From positions 1-39,222 of IMG/VR virus record IMGVR_UViG_3300033144_007217: a stretch of 39,222 nt of DNA. The stretch is one strand, 5' to 3'. Positions within the stretch are counted from its first letter, which is position 1. Each line of letters starts with the position of its first letter. This stretch comes from a virus. Of this stretch, positions 26,314 through 34,971 are shown in pieces. The position numbers and the translations under genes are program-made. Below the pieces are notes generated by a model, which saw only the letters and a list, made by a program, of their open reading frames with translations, had not been told where the DNA came from and did no database searches.

Positions 26314-26802
26314 CTATGCTCCTAAGCCTAAACCGGGAGGAGGTCCCGCAGGTGGGGCCGCACCGGGTGCGGGTCCACCAAGAGGTCCAGGTGGTCCAGG
26401 AGGTGCGCCAGGTGGTGGTGGAGCACCCGGAGGTGCGCCAGGTGGCGGTGCGCCTGGTCCAGCAGGAGCCTGTTGAGCAGGAGTTTCTCCCTCTTTATTA
26501 CTATCGGCAATAGGCTTGCCTGACACTAGTTTTTCTAGCAAAGACCAGACATCTTTTGCCGTCAGTTGTTCGGGCTCAGCTTGTTGGCCTGGAGCACCTC
26601 CAGGAGCCGGTGGGCCACCAAGTCCTGGTGGGCCACCCAAGCCAGGAGGTCCGCCCATACCGCCACCCATCGGTGGAGGAGGAGGTCCGCCCATACCGCC
26701 AGGAGGAGGCGGGGGGGGTGCGCCTGCCATACCACCCGGAGGTGGTGGAGGAGGTCCGCCCAATGGCTGCTCGGTCAAGAAAAAGAACTCTGTAAATCTC
26801 AT
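26314..26802 (-). CDS. Pro/Gly-rich low-complexity protein with capsid-targeting-like N-terminus
   Basis: A 162-aa protein. It starts M-R-F-T-E-F-F-F-L-T-E-Q, similar to T4 capsid-targeting peptides. It then has long P/G repeats with G-G-M and G-L-G-G-P-P units (about residues 14-70), a short helical segment (A-K-D-V-W-S-L-L-E-K-L-V, about residues 80-91), and a second P/G/A-rich tract. It is intrinsically disordered. It is read together with gp47 (TAG then TTG). TATATAC lies upstream but no clear ribosome site. Function unknown; perhaps a packaged internal protein or a scaffold. Confidence 0.65.
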   Translation of the reverse strand: MRFTEFFFLTEQPLGGPPPPPPGGMAGAPPPPPPGGMGGPPPPPMGGGMGGPPGLGGPPGLGGPPAPGGAPGQQAEPEQLTAKDVWSLLEKLVSGKPIADSNKEGETPAQQAPAGPGAPPPGAPPGAPPPPGAPPGPPGPLGGPAPGAAPPAGPPPGLGLGA

Positions 26803-26992
26803 GATACGGTATATAGGAATAATTTTCTGATCTTCTAGCGAACATTTTGGGAACCTGGAGCGTCTAGTTAAATATGTTCTGCTTGTCTAAAGGACGAAGA
26901 CCCAGTAGAACAGCCTCGTCGCCGCAATCGGCGAGGTCAGTACAATACACCCCGGCGTTCCAGAGGGATGTCGGGAAATAATGAGGAATACC
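26803..26992 (+). promoter_or_regulatory. Leader region upstream of the tRNA array
   Basis: About 190 bp without a gene on the plus strand. TTGGGA (26847) and TTAAAT (26868) are a weak -35/-10 pair (15-nt gap). A hairpin at 26914-26936 (CGCCG/CGGCG core, loop CAAT) follows. Its 3' arm GCGAGG can also pair with CCTCGC at 27033-27038 inside the leader ORF, so it may take part in the attenuator. Confidence 0.45.
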
Positions 26993-27070
26993 ATGAGAAA
27001 CCTACTGTCCAGCTTGTTTAGTCTTTTATCATCCTCGCTCTATAGCGATGGTCGAGGAGGGCCTGTCTAA
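26993..27070 (+). CDS. 25-aa Leu/Ser-rich leader peptide, tRNA-sensing attenuator
   Basis: ORF ATG-AGA-AAC, then fifteen codons of only Leu, Ser, Phe and Tyr (L-L-S-S-L-F-S-L-L-S-S-S-L-Y-S), then D-G-R-G-G-P-V and TAA. AGGA lies 5 nt before the ATG; an in-frame ATG also exists at 26981. The six Leu codons CTA, CTG, TTG, CTT, TTA and CTC each occur exactly once. Ser uses TCC twice, AGC twice, AGT, TCA and TCG. Every one of the fifteen codons is read by a tRNA encoded in this window, nearly all of them downstream of the terminator at 27094-27139. The arrangement is that of trp/leu/phe leader peptides. The Leu/Ser stretch covers segment 1 of the attenuator; the final codons form segment 2. Confidence 0.8.
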   Translation: MRNLLSSLFSLLSSSLYSDGRGGPV

Positions 27071-27139
27071 GCATATTGGACATAACGGGGAACAAAAAAC
27101 CCCATCGGCCCTTCTGGAAGGGCCGATGGGGTTTTTTTT
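27032..27139 (+). promoter_or_regulatory. Attenuator with mutually exclusive pairings before the tRNA array
   Basis: Four segments can be read directly. Segment 1 is TCCTCG (27032-27037). Segment 2 is CGAGGA-GGGCC (27053-27063). Segment 3, the terminator left arm, contains GGCCCTTCT (27107-27115). Segment 4 is the terminator right arm. 1:2 gives 6 bp; 2:3 gives 9 bp (one G-U) and destroys the terminator; 3:4 is the terminator. An alternative antiterminator pairing is CGATGG (27046-27051) with CCATCG (27102-27107). A ribosome stalled in the Leu/Ser codons masks segment 1 and frees segment 2; one at the stop codon masks segment 2. Confidence 0.75.
27094..27139 (+). terminator. Intrinsic terminator directly before tRNA-Phe
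   Basis: A 15-bp GC-rich stem (CCCCATCGGCCCTTC with its complement) with a minimal loop, preceded by six A and followed by eight T. It ends 3 nt before the first tRNA, so transcripts starting in the leader can only reach the tRNAs by reading through it. Confidence 0.93.
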
Positions 27140-27142
27140 ATT

Positions 27143-27216
27143 GGTGCGGTAGCTCAGCAAGGTAGAGCACTTGGTTGAAGCCCAGGGTGTCGGTGGTTCA
27201 ATTCCGCCCCGTACCA
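27143..27216 (+). tRNA. tRNA-Phe(GAA)
   Basis: Acceptor GGTGCGG/CCGTACC, D-arm GCTC/GAGC, anticodon stem CTTGG/CCAGG with loop TTGAAGC, T-arm GGTGG-TTCAATT-CCGCC, discriminator A. No CCA is encoded. It reads UUU and UUC; a UUU codon occurs in the leader peptide. Confidence 0.93.
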
Positions 27217-27293
27217 CTTGCGTTTGATCTTTGACAATTTGGTAACTCAGTGATCTTCGTGCCAATCCAGGGCGCACGCAAGTGCGTCCTATT
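27217..27293 (+). other. Spacer with GNRA-capped hairpin
   Basis: No gene seen. An 8-bp stem GGGCGCAC/GTGCGTCC capped by GCAA lies at 27270-27289, 4 nt before a tRNA-like sequence. It may guide processing of the precursor. No U-tract follows, so it is not a terminator. Confidence 0.5.
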
Positions 27294-27380
27294 GGGAGGT
27301 GCTCCACACGGGTGTCTGTAAAACACTTGGCCTTGTTATGTCGTGGTGGTCGCCAAAAGGTTCAATTCCTTCACTTCCCA
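27294..27380 (+). tRNA. Tyr-type (GTA) tRNA-like sequence lacking a D-arm
   Basis: Acceptor GGGAGGT/ACTTCCC pairs, T-arm AAGG-TTCAATT-CCTT pairs, and GGTGT-CTGTAAA-ACACT forms an anticodon arm with GTA. Only about 10 nt separate acceptor and anticodon stem, so no D-arm fits. A long extra arm (TTGGC/GCCAA around a 20-nt loop) follows. It is either a degenerate tRNA-Tyr or an unusual tRNA-like RNA. An intact tRNA-Tyr lies 4 nt downstream. Confidence 0.5.
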
Positions 27381-27384
27381 CTTA

Positions 27385-27465
27385 GGGAGTACTGGGCATA
27401 GGTGAGCCCACCTGACTGTAAATCAGACGCCATCGGCTGTGGCGGTTCAATTCCGTCTGCTCCCA
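27385..27465 (+). tRNA. tRNA-Tyr(GTA)
   Basis: Acceptor GGGAGTA/TGCTCCC, D-arm GGGC/GCCC, anticodon loop CTGTAAA, long variable arm GCCA/TGGC (class II, as in bacterial tRNA-Tyr), T-arm GGCGG-TTCAATT-CCGTC, discriminator A, no CCA. Confidence 0.92.
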
Positions 27466-27487
27466 CTAGATGTTTGACGATTGGTAC

Positions 27488-27823
27488 TTACTCGTCTGAA
27501 TCGGCTTGCACTGGCATGCCGGTGTATTGGGCGAACTCTTCATCTGACATACGATCACCTATTTTGGTCGGATTATATCCGAGGGCTTTCATACGAAACA
27601 TATGAGCTTCGACATCGTCTGTGGTGGCTCGGGTCATGTCGTCCCAAGTAATGGTTTTCAGTTCAGGGGATTCATTGGCGTTCATCACTTCACCACCGAA
27701 ATCATCTGCCGCATTGGCAATTTGGTAATCAGGAGGAGTTGTGTCGCCTAGAGATCGTTCATCATCCGGCTCCGAGACCGGAGGATTTTCAAGTTGGTCT
27801 GAGAAATCATGAAAGTTTAGCAT
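27488..27823 (-). CDS. Hypothetical 111-aa protein inside the tRNA array
   Basis: Start chosen at the ATG at 27823 (M-L-N-F-H-D-F-S-D-Q-L-E), which has GTATATA 4 nt upstream and no Shine-Dalgarno sequence. It is an acidic, mostly helical protein; D-D-V-E-A-H-M-F-R-M-K-A-L-G-Y-N-P-T-K-I-G-D-R-M is a plausible helix-turn-helix-like pair. The N-terminus fits the capsid-targeting-like pattern. It lies antisense between tRNA-Tyr and a Leu-anticodon tRNA, and its promoter motif abuts that tRNA. Confidence 0.6.
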   Translation of the reverse strand: MLNFHDFSDQLENPPVSEPDDERSLGDTTPPDYQIANAADDFGGEVMNANESPELKTITWDDMTRATTDDVEAHMFRMKALGYNPTKIGDRMSDEEFAQYTGMPVQADSDE

Positions 27824-27827
27824 GAGG

Positions 27828-27834
27828 TATATAC
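27828..27834 (-). promoter_or_regulatory. Late-promoter-like GTATATA, 4 nt before an ATG
   Basis: GTATATA-CCTC-ATG in the sense direction, directly abutting the 5' end of the divergent tRNA at 27835. Same motif class as at 31185, 33149 and 37010. Confidence 0.5.
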
Positions 27835-27909
27835 GGGGTGGTACGCAAAAGGCAAAGCGACATGACTTAAAATTATGTGATTCTGTGGGTTCGACTCCCA
27901 CCCGCCCTA
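27835..27909 (+). tRNA. Short-variable-loop tRNA with Leu anticodon TAA
   Basis: Acceptor GGGGTGG/CCGCCCT (G1-U72 wobble), D-arm CGC/GCG, anticodon stem CATGA/TTATG with loop CTTAAAA, variable loop about 7 nt, T-arm GTGGG-TTCGACT-CCCAC, discriminator A. The anticodon reads UUA (Leu), but normal tRNA-Leu has a long variable arm. It is the only UUA reader in the array. Charging identity is uncertain. Confidence 0.8.
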
Positions 27910-27913
27910 CTAC

Positions 27914-28004
27914 GGAAGCGAGGCAAATAATGGTTCGTTGCGGCACTTTGCTAAAGTGTTCCGGTGAAATAGTCCGGTGCTAGGTTCAATTCCTGCCGCT
28001 TCCG
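27914..28004 (+). tRNA. tRNA-Ser(GCT), first copy
   Basis: Perfect acceptor GGAAGCG/CGCTTCC, D-stem GCAA/TTGC, anticodon stem GCACT/AGTGT with loop TTGCTAA, variable arm CCGG/CCGG, T-arm with TTCAATT, discriminator G as in tRNA-Ser. Reads AGC and AGU. No CCA. Confidence 0.93.
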
Positions 28005-28012
28005 CTTATTTT

Positions 28013-28100
28013 GGAGAGTAATGCAGTTGGCTTGCTAAGCGATCTCGAAAATCGTCGCCGTGAAATACCGGTCGGTTGGGTTCGATTCCCCCACTCTCCG
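28013..28100 (+). tRNA. tRNA-Ser(CGA)
   Basis: Acceptor GGAGAGT/ACTCTCC, anticodon stem CGAT/ATCG with loop CTCGAAA, class II variable arm, T-loop TTCGATT, discriminator G. Reads UCG. Closely similar in body to the next tRNA, suggesting duplication. Confidence 0.92.
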
Positions 28101-28112
28101 CTTACAACTTAT

Positions 28113-28200
28113 AGAGAGTATGGCAGTTGGCTTGCCAAGCAGTTTGGAAGACTGTAGCCGTGAAATACCGGTCGGTTGGGTTCAATTCCCCCACTCTCTG
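28113..28200 (+). tRNA. tRNA-Ser(GGA), first copy
   Basis: Acceptor AGAGAGT/ACTCTCT, anticodon stem CAGT/ACTG with loop TTGGAAG, class II variable arm, T-loop TTCAATT, discriminator G. Reads UCC and UCU. A near-duplicate of the CGA tRNA outside the anticodon arm. Confidence 0.92.
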
Positions 28201-28205
28201 CTTAC

Positions 28206-28288
28206 GGAAGGTATCCGAATGGTGAGGAAGATGGTTGCTAACCATCCGCTGCTATACGCAGTTGCGGGTTCGAGTCCCGTGCCTTCCG
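28206..28288 (+). tRNA. tRNA-Ser(GCT), second copy
   Basis: Acceptor GGAAGGT/GCCTTCC, D-stem TCC/GGA, anticodon stem GATGG/CCATC with loop TTGCTAA, variable arm CTGC/GCAG, T-arm GCGGG-TTCGAGT-CCCGT, discriminator G. Same anticodon as the copy at 27914 but a different body, so not a recent duplicate. Confidence 0.93.
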
Positions 28289-28293
28289 CTTAC

Positions 28294-28379
28294 AGAGGGT
28301 ATGACAGTTGGCTTGTCGAGCAGTCTTGAAAACTGTAGCCGTGGAATACCGGTCGTGGGTTCGATTCCCTCACCCTCTG
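28294..28379 (+). tRNA. tRNA-Ser(TGA), first copy
   Basis: Acceptor AGAGGGT/ACCCTCT, anticodon stem CAGT/ACTG with loop CTTGAAA, class II variable arm, T-loop TTCGATT, discriminator G. Reads UCA. Belongs to the same body family as the CGA and GGA tRNAs upstream. Confidence 0.92.
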
Positions 28380-28381
28380 CT

Positions 28382-28967: not shown

Positions 28968-29051
28968 GGAAGTGACCCGGCTGGATGAGGAGCCAATCTT
29001 GAAAATTGGTGGGTGTAACAAGCCTTGTGGGTTCGAGTCCCACCGCTTCCG
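28968..29051 (+). tRNA. tRNA-Ser(TGA), second copy
   Basis: Acceptor GGAAGTG/CGCTTCC, anticodon stem CCAAT/ATTGG with loop CTTGAAA, class II variable arm, T-arm GTGGG-TTCGAGT-CCCAC, discriminator G. Reads UCA. The body differs from the TGA copy at 28294. Confidence 0.93.
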
Positions 29052-29240: not shown

Positions 29241-29323
29241 GGCCTCGTGACGGAAAGGTAGACGTGCGACGTTGAGGGCGTCGTGTCCGAGAGGGCGTGC
29301 TGGTTCAAGTCCAGTCGAGGCCA
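29241..29323 (+). tRNA. tRNA-Leu(GAG)
   Basis: Perfect acceptor GGCCTCG/CGAGGCC, anticodon stem CGACG/CGTCG with loop TTGAGGG, class II variable arm, T-arm CTGG-TTCAAGT-CCAG, discriminator A as in tRNA-Leu. Reads CUC and CUU. Confidence 0.93.
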
Positions 29324-29328
29324 CTTAT

Positions 29329-29411
29329 GGCGGTGTGGTGGAATGGTAGACACGCAAGTCTCAAAAACTTGTGCTCGAAAGGGCGTGTCGGTTCGACTCC
29401 GACCACCGCTA
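29329..29411 (+). tRNA. tRNA-Leu(CAA), class II
   Basis: Acceptor GGCGGTG/CACCGCT (G1-U72), anticodon stem CAAGT/ACTTG with loop CTCAAAA, long variable arm, T-arm GTCGG-TTCGACT-CCGAC, discriminator A. Reads UUG. A class I tRNA with the same anticodon follows 3 nt downstream. Confidence 0.92.
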
Positions 29412-29414
29412 CTT

Positions 29415-29489
29415 GGCGAGGTAGCCCAACTGGTAGCAGGCGGTAGTTTCAAACACTACAGGTTGCGGGTTCGAGTCCCGTTCTCGCCA
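29415..29489 (+). tRNA. Short-variable-loop tRNA with Leu anticodon CAA
   Basis: Acceptor GGCGAGG/TCTCGCC, D-arm GCC/GGC, anticodon stem GTAGT/ACTAC with loop TTCAAAC, variable loop AGGTT (5 nt), T-arm GCGGG-TTCGAGT-CCCGT, discriminator A. Class I body with a Leu anticodon. Shares the D-arm TAGCCCAA...GGTAGCAGGC with the two similar tRNAs at 29496 and 29973. Confidence 0.85.
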
Positions 29490-29495
29490 CTTTAT

Positions 29496-29570
29496 GCCGA
29501 GGTAGCCCAATTGGTAGCAGGCGCATGATTTAGGATCATGATGTTGCGGGTTCGAGTCCCGCTCTCGGTA
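29496..29570 (+). tRNA. Short-variable-loop tRNA with Leu anticodon TAG
   Basis: Acceptor GCCGAGG/TCTCGGT (G1-U72), same D-arm as the previous tRNA, anticodon stem CATGA/TCATG with loop TTTAGGA, variable loop of 5 nt, T-arm GCGGG-TTCGAGT-CCCGC, discriminator A. The anticodon UAG reads CUA (Leu); it is not a stop suppressor. Confidence 0.85.
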
Positions 29571-29572
29571 CT

Positions 29573-29885: not shown

Positions 29886-29969
29886 GGCCTTGTGTCGGAA
29901 TAGGTAGACGAGCCACGCTCAGAACGTGGTGGGCGCAAGCCCGTGCTGGTTCAAGTCCAGTCAAGGCCA
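29886..29969 (+). tRNA. tRNA-Leu(CAG), class II
   Basis: Perfect acceptor GGCCTTG/CAAGGCC, anticodon stem CCACG/CGTGG with loop CTCAGAA, long variable arm GGGC/GCCC, T-arm CTGG-TTCAAGT-CCAG, discriminator A. Reads CUG. Similar to tRNA-Leu(GAG) at 29241. Confidence 0.93.
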
Positions 29970-29972
29970 CTT

Positions 29973-30045
29973 GCCGGGGTAGCCCAATGGCAGAGGCGTG
30001 TGGTTCAGGACCACAAGGTTGAGAGTTCGAGTCTCTCCCCCGGTA
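29973..30045 (+). tRNA. Short-variable-loop tRNA with Leu anticodon CAG
   Basis: Acceptor GCCGGGG/CCCCGGT (G1-U72), D-arm GCC/GGC, anticodon stem TGTGG/CCACA with loop TTCAGGA, variable loop of 5 nt, T-arm GAGAG-TTCGAGT-CTCTC, discriminator A. Follows the class II CAG tRNA by 3 nt, repeating the pairing seen for CAA. Confidence 0.85.
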
Positions 30046-30049
30046 CTTG

Positions 30050-33411: not shown

Positions 33412-33494
33412 GCCGAGGTGGCGGAACGGTAGACGCCCTGGTCTTAGGAACCAGTGCCCGAAAGGGCGTGCAGGTTCGACTCCTGTCCTTGGCA
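33412..33494 (+). tRNA. tRNA-Leu(TAG), class II
   Basis: Acceptor GCCGAGG/CCTTGGC, anticodon stem CTGGT/ACCAG with loop CTTAGGA, long variable arm GCCC/GGGC, T-arm GCAGG-TTCGACT-CCTGT, discriminator A. Reads CUA. Outside the main array but completes the Leu set; a class I tRNA with the same anticodon lies at 29496. Confidence 0.93.
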
Positions 33495-34858: not shown

Positions 34859-34940
34859 GGAAGTGAAGCGAATGGTTAGCAAGCCGGTTGGAAGCCGGTT
34901 GCCGGTAAAACGGTTGCAGGTTCGAGCCCTGTCGCTTCCG
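34859..34940 (+). tRNA. tRNA-Ser(GGA), second copy
   Basis: Acceptor GGAAGTG/CGCTTCC, anticodon stem GCCGG/CCGGT with loop TTGGAAG, variable arm GCCG/CGGT, T-arm GCAGG-TTCGAGC-CCTGT, discriminator G. Reads UCC and UCU. It is the intact relative of the relic at 28901. Confidence 0.93.
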
Positions 34941-34971
34941 CTTAAGACACATCAACGCAAAGGAGACCGTC

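Follow-up and report, generated by a model that had tools for sequence, protein, structure and literature searches.

What does a short open reading frame built largely of Leu, Ser, Phe and Tyr codons do between a Shine-Dalgarno sequence and a strong terminator, directly in front of an array of tRNA genes for the same four amino acids? The locus that raises this question lies in a 39,222-base IMG/VR virus record, analysed over its whole length (the window), whose gene content includes a tail sheath, SbcCD, ribonucleotide reductase and tRNA nucleotidyltransferase. A first-pass annotation of this DNA had proposed an attenuator with 1:2/2:3/3:4 geometry. Our analysis supports that reading: leader, terminator and array are conserved, and the antiterminator is obtained by computation, being weak in six leaders. 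Thus, we consider it very probable that a ribosome-mediated transcription attenuator stands in front of this phage tRNA operon.

The features of the locus and the leaders of its relatives are collected in Table 1. The short leader ORF is accompanied by a ribosome-binding site, and Shine-Dalgarno-like sites are found in most relatives, so that translation is predicted. A second in-frame ATG upstream of the ORF, at position 26981, is the less likely start. Fifteen consecutive Leu/Ser/Phe/Tyr codons had been noticed in a 25-codon ORF, and these are indeed codons 4–18 of 26993–27070; reading the codons also confirmed that each of the six Leu codons is used once and that the Ser codons listed in the annotation are present (five of six, UCU being absent). 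None of 4000 random segments of the same length, drawn from the proteins at the locus, reached 15/15 Leu/Ser/Phe/Tyr. Taken alone, the codon diversity of the window leader departs only slightly from expectation (13 distinct codons in 15, 10.2 expected, p = 0.013), and diversity beyond composition is significant in some leaders only. A Pro/Gly-rich repetitive protein is encoded on the minus strand between sbcD and the leader (26314–26802) and occurs at the same position in L003 and LR756511.1.

Table 1. Features of the window (positions of the 39,222-base stretch) and leaders of related phages. GTG starts are written as M; LR756511.1 is also named W01, and suffixes a, b and c mark separate leaders of one phage.
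Feature	Position	Strand	Remark
Shine-Dalgarno GAGGA	26983–26987	+	5 nt upstream of ATG; kept in L003
Leader peptide ORF MRNLLSSLFSLLSSSLYSDGRGGPV (then stop)	26993–27070	+	25 codons; Leu/Ser/Tyr/Phe leaders at equivalent place in relatives
Leader codons, in order			ATG AGA AAC CTA CTG TCC AGC TTG TTT AGT CTT TTA TCA TCC TCG CTC TAT AGC GAT GGT CGA GGA GGG CCT GTC TAA
Regulatory codons 4–18	27002–27046	+	exclusively Leu/Ser/Phe/Tyr
Segment 1 (UCCUCG)	27032–27037	+	pairs with CGAGGA 27053–27058; MFE fold
Segment 2 (CGAGGAGGGCC)	27053–27063	+	protector partner; antiterminator 5' strand is 27055–27063; inside stop-codon ribosome footprint
Hairpin across stop codon (UGUCUAA...UUGGACA)	27064–27082	+	enclosed by antiterminator; kept in L003
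Small GGGG...CCCC hairpin	27087–27103	+	at base of terminator 5' arm; most relatives have a similar motif
Intrinsic terminator	27094–27139	+	20-bp stem 27094–27137 plus end of U tract, -35 kcal/mol
Segment 3 (GGCCCUUCU)	27107–27115	+	common to antiterminator and terminator 5' arm
tRNA-Phe(GAA), first array gene	27143–27217	+	ARAGORN
boxA-like site TCTTTGACAATT	27228–27239	+	after first tRNA of window array
tRNA-Tyr(GUA)	27294–27379	+	missed by ARAGORN; covariance search and by eye
tRNA-Tyr(GUA)	27385–27466	+	ARAGORN
tRNA-Leu(UAA), tRNA-Ser(GCU)	27835–28005	+	ARAGORN
tRNA-Ser(CGA)	28012–28100	+	missed by ARAGORN; covariance search and by eye
tRNA-Ser(GGA), Ser(GCU), Ser(UGA)	28113–28380	+	ARAGORN
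tRNA-Ser(UGA)	28968–29050	+	missed by ARAGORN; covariance search and by eye
tRNA-Leu(GAG), Leu(CAA), Leu(CAA, short variable arm), Leu(UAG, short variable arm)	29241–29571	+	
tRNA-Leu(CAG), Leu(CAG, short variable arm)	29886–30046	+	
tRNA-Leu(UAG)	33412–33494	+	ARAGORN
tRNA-Ser(GGA)	34859–34941	+	ARAGORN
L003 leader MRTLLSSLFSLSLLSSLYSDGIGGSV			before sbcD-side array
LR756511.1 leader MHTFSASLRLSSYSLSSLLYSNVRRGT			before sbcD-side array
L011 leader MHTFSVNLLSSYYSLSLSLSSAGRWTE			before sbcD-side array
L045 leader MHTFSASLLLSSYYSLLSLSSARRWTN			before sbcD-side array
L012 leader MFNLSVSLLSSLSSLLYSNAGRGTE			before sbcD-side array
L037 leader MHALLSYSLSSLSSLFSEPGETAAVA			before sbcD-side array
L029 leader MNTLSLSLSLSYSLLSFSNGEGCVLT			before sbcD-side array
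L034 and L036 leader MNTLSLSLSLSYSSLYLFSDGEGCVLT			before sbcD-side array
L033 leader MNVLSSVLFSLSYSSLSSGPEEGV			before sbcD-side array
G037 leader MGIFSSSLSFLFLSLYLSDRWRCA			further array, Leu/Ser/Tyr/Phe-only
G036 leader MDRVSPLRSLNCYCSHLLSSLLFSSDGEGSVPD			further array, Leu/Ser/Tyr/Phe-only
G017 leader MKFYLSLSLSLYCLLSRLRSPSG			further array, Leu/Ser/Tyr/Phe-only
L186 leader MNCMFFSFSLSSSYLLLSNMEDIAID			before Phe-Ser-Leu-Tyr; from later sweep of newly fetched loci
W01b leader (LR756511.1) MYSATTRRWCVINKAEQQPCAFAGHKEPVFGDNIT			all 16 types besides Leu/Ser/Tyr/Met; Leu absent; array of other amino acids
G008b leader MAVLIQRHGKQWCRCHKQWNNQITYLMS			Asn/Lys/Ile/His/Gln/Arg/Cys; array Asn-Asn-Lys-Ile-Ile-His-Gln-Lys-Gln-Arg-Gln-His-Cys-Lys
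G008c leader MLTCRFTFVERTAGTTEAVAPAAVRPEGMSAVDTTV			Pro/Gly/Asp/Thr/Glu/Val/Ala; array begins Met-Pro-Gly-Gly-Asp-Asp-Thr-Glu
G037b leader MLVSVQKNQVCWQGITCPCATITPKQGETNGRTGHEDNAPAP			15 isotypes other than Leu/Ser/Tyr/Phe; array of 15 other isotypes

The array itself proved to be as described, with no isotypes besides Leu, Ser, Tyr and Phe and with a reader for each leader codon: ARAGORN finds 15 tRNAs in the whole 39-kb window, all of these four types, and three further Tyr/Ser tRNAs missed by the program are supported by a covariance search and by eye. The regulatory codons thus correspond to the tRNAs that the operon encodes. Since the gap between the terminator stem and tRNA-Phe is only 5 nt, there is no room for a promoter of tRNA-Phe's own after the terminator, and for the same reason the leader and the tRNA genes may share one transcript.

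Leu-anticodon tRNAs of 74–76 nt with a short variable arm (type I shape) are found in the window at 27835–27910, 29415–29571 and 29973–30046, where they adjoin a long-arm tRNA-Leu whose anticodon may be identical or different; similar ones are present in L003, G002, G003, G004, G005, G007, G008 and G017. The tRNA-Leu of bacteria is normally type II, and the short-arm forms might evade a type II-specific nuclease. In bacteria the Leu, Ser and Tyr tRNAs are all type II and Phe is not. A type II tRNA nuclease behind the Leu/Ser/Tyr grouping was considered and kept as a lead only: Phe does not belong to this type, and the only literature found on such a nuclease concerns human SLFN11/14.

A strong terminator directly after the ORF was likewise among the annotated features, and it is there (20 bp, -35 kcal/mol), so that an intrinsic terminator lies between the leader and the structural genes. 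In L003 its stem shows compensatory changes relative to the window (A-U to U-A, U-A to C-G). The 9-bp pairing suggested between the ORF end and the terminator 5' arm is formed by AGGAGGGCC (27055–27063) with GGCCCUUCU (27107–27115), and an earlier segment, UCCUCG, can indeed compete for the ORF-end stretch by pairing with CGAGGA. In the window fold the antiterminator encloses the stop-codon hairpin and the small GGGG-CCCC hairpin, and 8 of its 9 pairs are retained in L003, some via changes. When the fold was computed with a ribosome footprint, as the annotation had proposed, the window antiterminator outperformed dinucleotide shuffles (p = 0.015; for the switch, p = 0.03).

Relatives were gathered with sbcD, which adjoins the array, as the anchor; they include L003 (69% identity), LR756511.1 (48%) and many others (about 37–46%). 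Searches of phage and plasmid DNA gave similarity at the tRNA level only, except for LR756511.1, and an SbcD alignment search of GTDB genomes found no relative. The sbcD-side arrays of the relatives consist of Leu/Ser/Tyr/Phe tRNAs only, save one tRNA in L045 whose type is unassigned, and a leader together with a terminator precedes a Leu/Ser/Tyr/Phe-only array in 15 distinct huge-phage contigs.

These data bear on the simplest alternative, namely an ordinary terminator beside tRNA genes, bidirectional and possibly serving leftward genes, with the ORF a chance low-complexity reading. Runs of A and T flank the window terminator on either side, and there is a leftward ORF at 27488–27946, as such an explanation would have it. 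However, in terminators of several relatives the U tract lies mainly in the sense direction, and leader and array are conserved across relatives. The leader is, moreover, the sole short ORF in the window to reach 13/15; in 509 kb (the window plus related loci) 18 of 7326 short-ORF stops do so, and 14 of these 18 are leaders before tRNA arrays. We regard the probability of a chance reading as negligible.

LR756511.1, G008 and G037 carry about 60 tRNAs each, in two or three arrays (LR756511.1, W01:427701-437521 and 220-278 kb; G008, 12-18, 165-174 and 185-193 kb; G037, 309-321 and 109-168 kb). These phages distribute their tRNAs over separate operons according to isotype, with Leu/Ser/Tyr(/Phe) set apart from the rest, and in G008 the rest is split further into Asn/Lys/Ile/His/Gln/Arg/Cys and Pro/Gly/Asp/Thr/Glu/Val/Ala. 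In each of the three a Met(CAU) tRNA, possibly an initiator, precedes the second leader (W01 277952, G008 165134, G037 167905) and is therefore outside that leader's control. There are also tRNAs with stop-reading anticodons (W01 179588, G008 219242, G037 167265 and 167352; CUA, in G037 also UUA). TAG recoding was considered on account of three TAG-ended leaders with further in-frame TAGs and of the CUA-anticodon tRNA in three genomes, and was rejected, TAG being an ordinary stop in long ORFs.

In these three phages the arrays distant from sbcD encode other isotypes and are also preceded by leaders, whose residues match the arrays that they precede. The G008 leaders match their own arrays at 14/25, 17/27 and 27/35 residues (other arrays, at most 10/25), 32 of the 34 residues of W01b are found in its own array versus 2/34, and for G037b the figures are 39/41 versus 2/41. 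Against native segments, containing all types with few Leu/Ser/Tyr/Phe residues is significant for W01b (p = 4e-4) and for G037b (all 15; p = 9e-5), and two small-set leaders give p = 0.01 and 0.05; these individual values carry some choice because three of the four leaders outside the Leu/Ser/Tyr/Phe group were first spotted by eye. The G037 and L186 leaders surfaced in automated sweeps, the others having first been recognised by eye.

If the leader were a nascent-chain arrest peptide or a small bioactive peptide, its composition would belong to the peptide and not to codon sensing. An LYSD/N-like end common to the Leu/Ser/Tyr/Phe leaders of several phages would agree with this. However, composition is kept among the leaders while residue order varies, and those on other arrays differ in composition, matching the arrays concerned, which makes a peptide function very improbable. 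The annotation had made its own reading depend on codon content and pairing being kept in relatives; the codon content was found to be kept in the 15 contigs, as well as to match in the differently composed leaders, and the pairing to be conserved in part of the leaders.

The switch was then followed by folding. In the computed folds, a ribosome stalled among the regulatory codons lets the leader end capture the terminator 5' arm, and one that has reached the stop codon leaves this arm unpaired with the leader. This stop-codon-released pairing is conserved in the window (W), L003, L029/L034/L036, G036, W01b, G008c and G037b. Capture is significant against dinucleotide shuffles in W, L029, L034, L036, G036, W01b, G008c and G037b, and not significant, with a weak or absent energy switch, in W01a, L011, L045, L012, L037a and G017. 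Combined over 13 representatives, the stall-dependent capture of the terminator arm gives a Fisher p of 6.5e-9, and its release once the ribosome is at the stop codon gives p = 1.4e-6. As computed, the antiterminator switch appears strong in about half of the cases and weak in the others. G008c and G037b have five segments: A:B and C:D are predicted to form under stall, and a ribosome covering A leads to B:C and the terminator (D:E) instead. This modelled wiring, A:B,C:D versus B:C,D:E, is the classical alternative. By computation, an exclusive antiterminator is set by ribosome position, weakly so in the six leaders named.

Those weak switch energies would be expected if, at any rate in the phages concerned, attenuation proceeded through ribosome-polymerase coupling and did not depend on a specific antiterminator. 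The strong specific antiterminators of the eight leaders with significant capture argue against this, and we hold it to be improbable. In the weak-switch leaders either the wiring is other than modelled, or coupling carries part of the work.

Under the attenuator reading, the leader would be translated by a ribosome as RNA polymerase moves on. As long as the tRNAs for Leu, Ser, Phe and Tyr were all plentiful, the ribosome would come to the stop codon and cover segment 2, the 20-bp terminator would form and the tRNAs would stay off. A shortage of any one of them would make the ribosome stall within codons 4–18, the leader end would pair with the terminator 5' arm, and the polymerase would read through into the entire Leu/Ser/Tyr/Phe array, perhaps aided by the downstream boxA-like site. 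An untranslated leader would favour the terminator through the UCCUCG:CGAGGA pairing. The leader may be seen as an OR-gate, which a shortage of any isotype supplied by the operon would turn on. We infer that stalling occurs and increases tRNA output, and that loss of tRNAs during infection is the trigger.

By sequence alone, the shortage could be caused by host nucleases, host tRNA cleavage being the cause that the annotation had proposed, by host tRNA decay or by poor charging. Since the remedy consists of tRNAs, their loss is the best fit. It also may be that the attenuator is real and responds to amino-acid starvation or poor charging, the extra tRNA helping indirectly, e.g., as differently charged tRNAs. 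In the classical leader-peptide attenuators it is charged tRNA that is sensed, and the letters of a genome do not distinguish an uncharged tRNA from a destroyed one. However, the output here is tRNA, neither biosynthesis nor a synthetase, and in three phages the leaders jointly cover nearly all isotypes; both features therefore suit tRNA supply better than the sensing of one amino acid, and we consider a starvation signal plausible but unlikely. A farther-reaching reading, which we hold with moderate confidence, is that in this huge-phage lineage the tRNAs are split into isotype-group operons, each with a multi-isotype leader of its own codons, and that these operons act as self-calibrating sensors that replenish just the missing tRNAs, most likely in answer to host defences that destroy tRNAs or to host tRNA decay.

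The amino-acid operon attenuators (trpL, hisL, leuL, pheL, thrL, ilvL) consist of a short leader ORF rich in regulatory codons, 1:2/2:3/3:4 hairpins and an intrinsic terminator, and ilvL senses three amino acids. The phage device shares with them the leader ORF, the alternative hairpins, the terminator and the proposed read-through on stalling, and differs in being viral, in having tRNA genes as its output and in covering 4 to 16 amino acids per leader. The Rfam amino-acid leaders remained below the gathering threshold, the best being Phe_leader RF01859 at 26992–27141 (21.1/55 bits, E 0.43). In E. coli, the pheM leader attenuates the pheST operon for phenylalanyl-tRNA synthetase and senses one amino acid; here, too, a component of the charging machinery would be controlled by leader-peptide attenuation, but it is the tRNAs themselves. 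T-box riboswitches bind uncharged tRNA directly, have no leader ORF and use terminator/antiterminator alternatives. The proposed response to the state of tRNA through such alternatives is similar, whereas the leader ORF sets the phage device apart; no T-box match was found in the window (4227 Rfam families, at threshold) or around the leader at E <= 10.

The purpose of phage tRNAs has been debated for decades, codon compensation being set against the replacement of cleaved tRNAs. If our reading is true, a shortage-driven tRNA switch would state directly what phage tRNA genes are for, and the question would become testable. Attenuation, otherwise a matter of one to three amino acids and of enzymes, would also be extended to 4 to 16 isotypes and to tRNA genes, and the leaders could reveal which tRNAs a phage expects to lose. 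Phage tRNA arrays as a counter-defence against anticodon nucleases are treated, with regard to tRNA content and anticodon-loop mutations, in the main text of PMC10264068; the phages described there share with ours the replacement of depleted host tRNAs as the likely purpose of their tRNAs. That main text makes no mention of an attenuator, leader or terminator, nor does the main text of the huge-phage paper PMC7162821 mention leader-peptide attenuation of tRNA genes. In the main texts of the published papers searched, we found no leader-attenuated tRNA genes, no leader sensing as many as 16 isotypes and no viral occurrence. The type of mechanism is known (trpL, hisL, pheL, ilvL); its use on phage tRNA operons is likely, rather than proven, to be new.

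Promoter-like sites lie 20–120 nt upstream of many leaders (combined Fisher p = 3e-9); in the window and in L003 we recognised no sigma-70-like promoter. Downstream of the attenuator there is a boxA-like site, whose sequence TCTTTGACAATT we take to resemble the rrn boxA consensus. In 24 array loci TCTTTGACAATT(TGG) occurs 15 times in the sense and once in the antisense orientation, about one per array in most arrays, and in LR756511.1 and L012 it directly follows the terminator. A boxA-like consensus on the sense strand of a stable-RNA operon suggests that an antitermination system of stable RNAs may be superposed on the attenuator. Unlike in rrn boxA/NusB-type antitermination, the putative site of the window sits after an attenuator and within a viral tRNA operon. 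BoxA-like sites are also present in the tRNA arrays of further phages (L118, L123, L124, L130, L133, L136, L140, L151). Leaders were sought before such arrays and none was found; since these boxA-bearing arrays are without leaders, the leader device is, as far as seen, limited to one lineage. After the boxA-like site of the window there is a conserved hairpin with a GCAA loop (CCAATCCAGGGCGCACGCAAGTGCGTCCTATTGG, 27263–27296), similar in L003, which looks like a boxB-type element.
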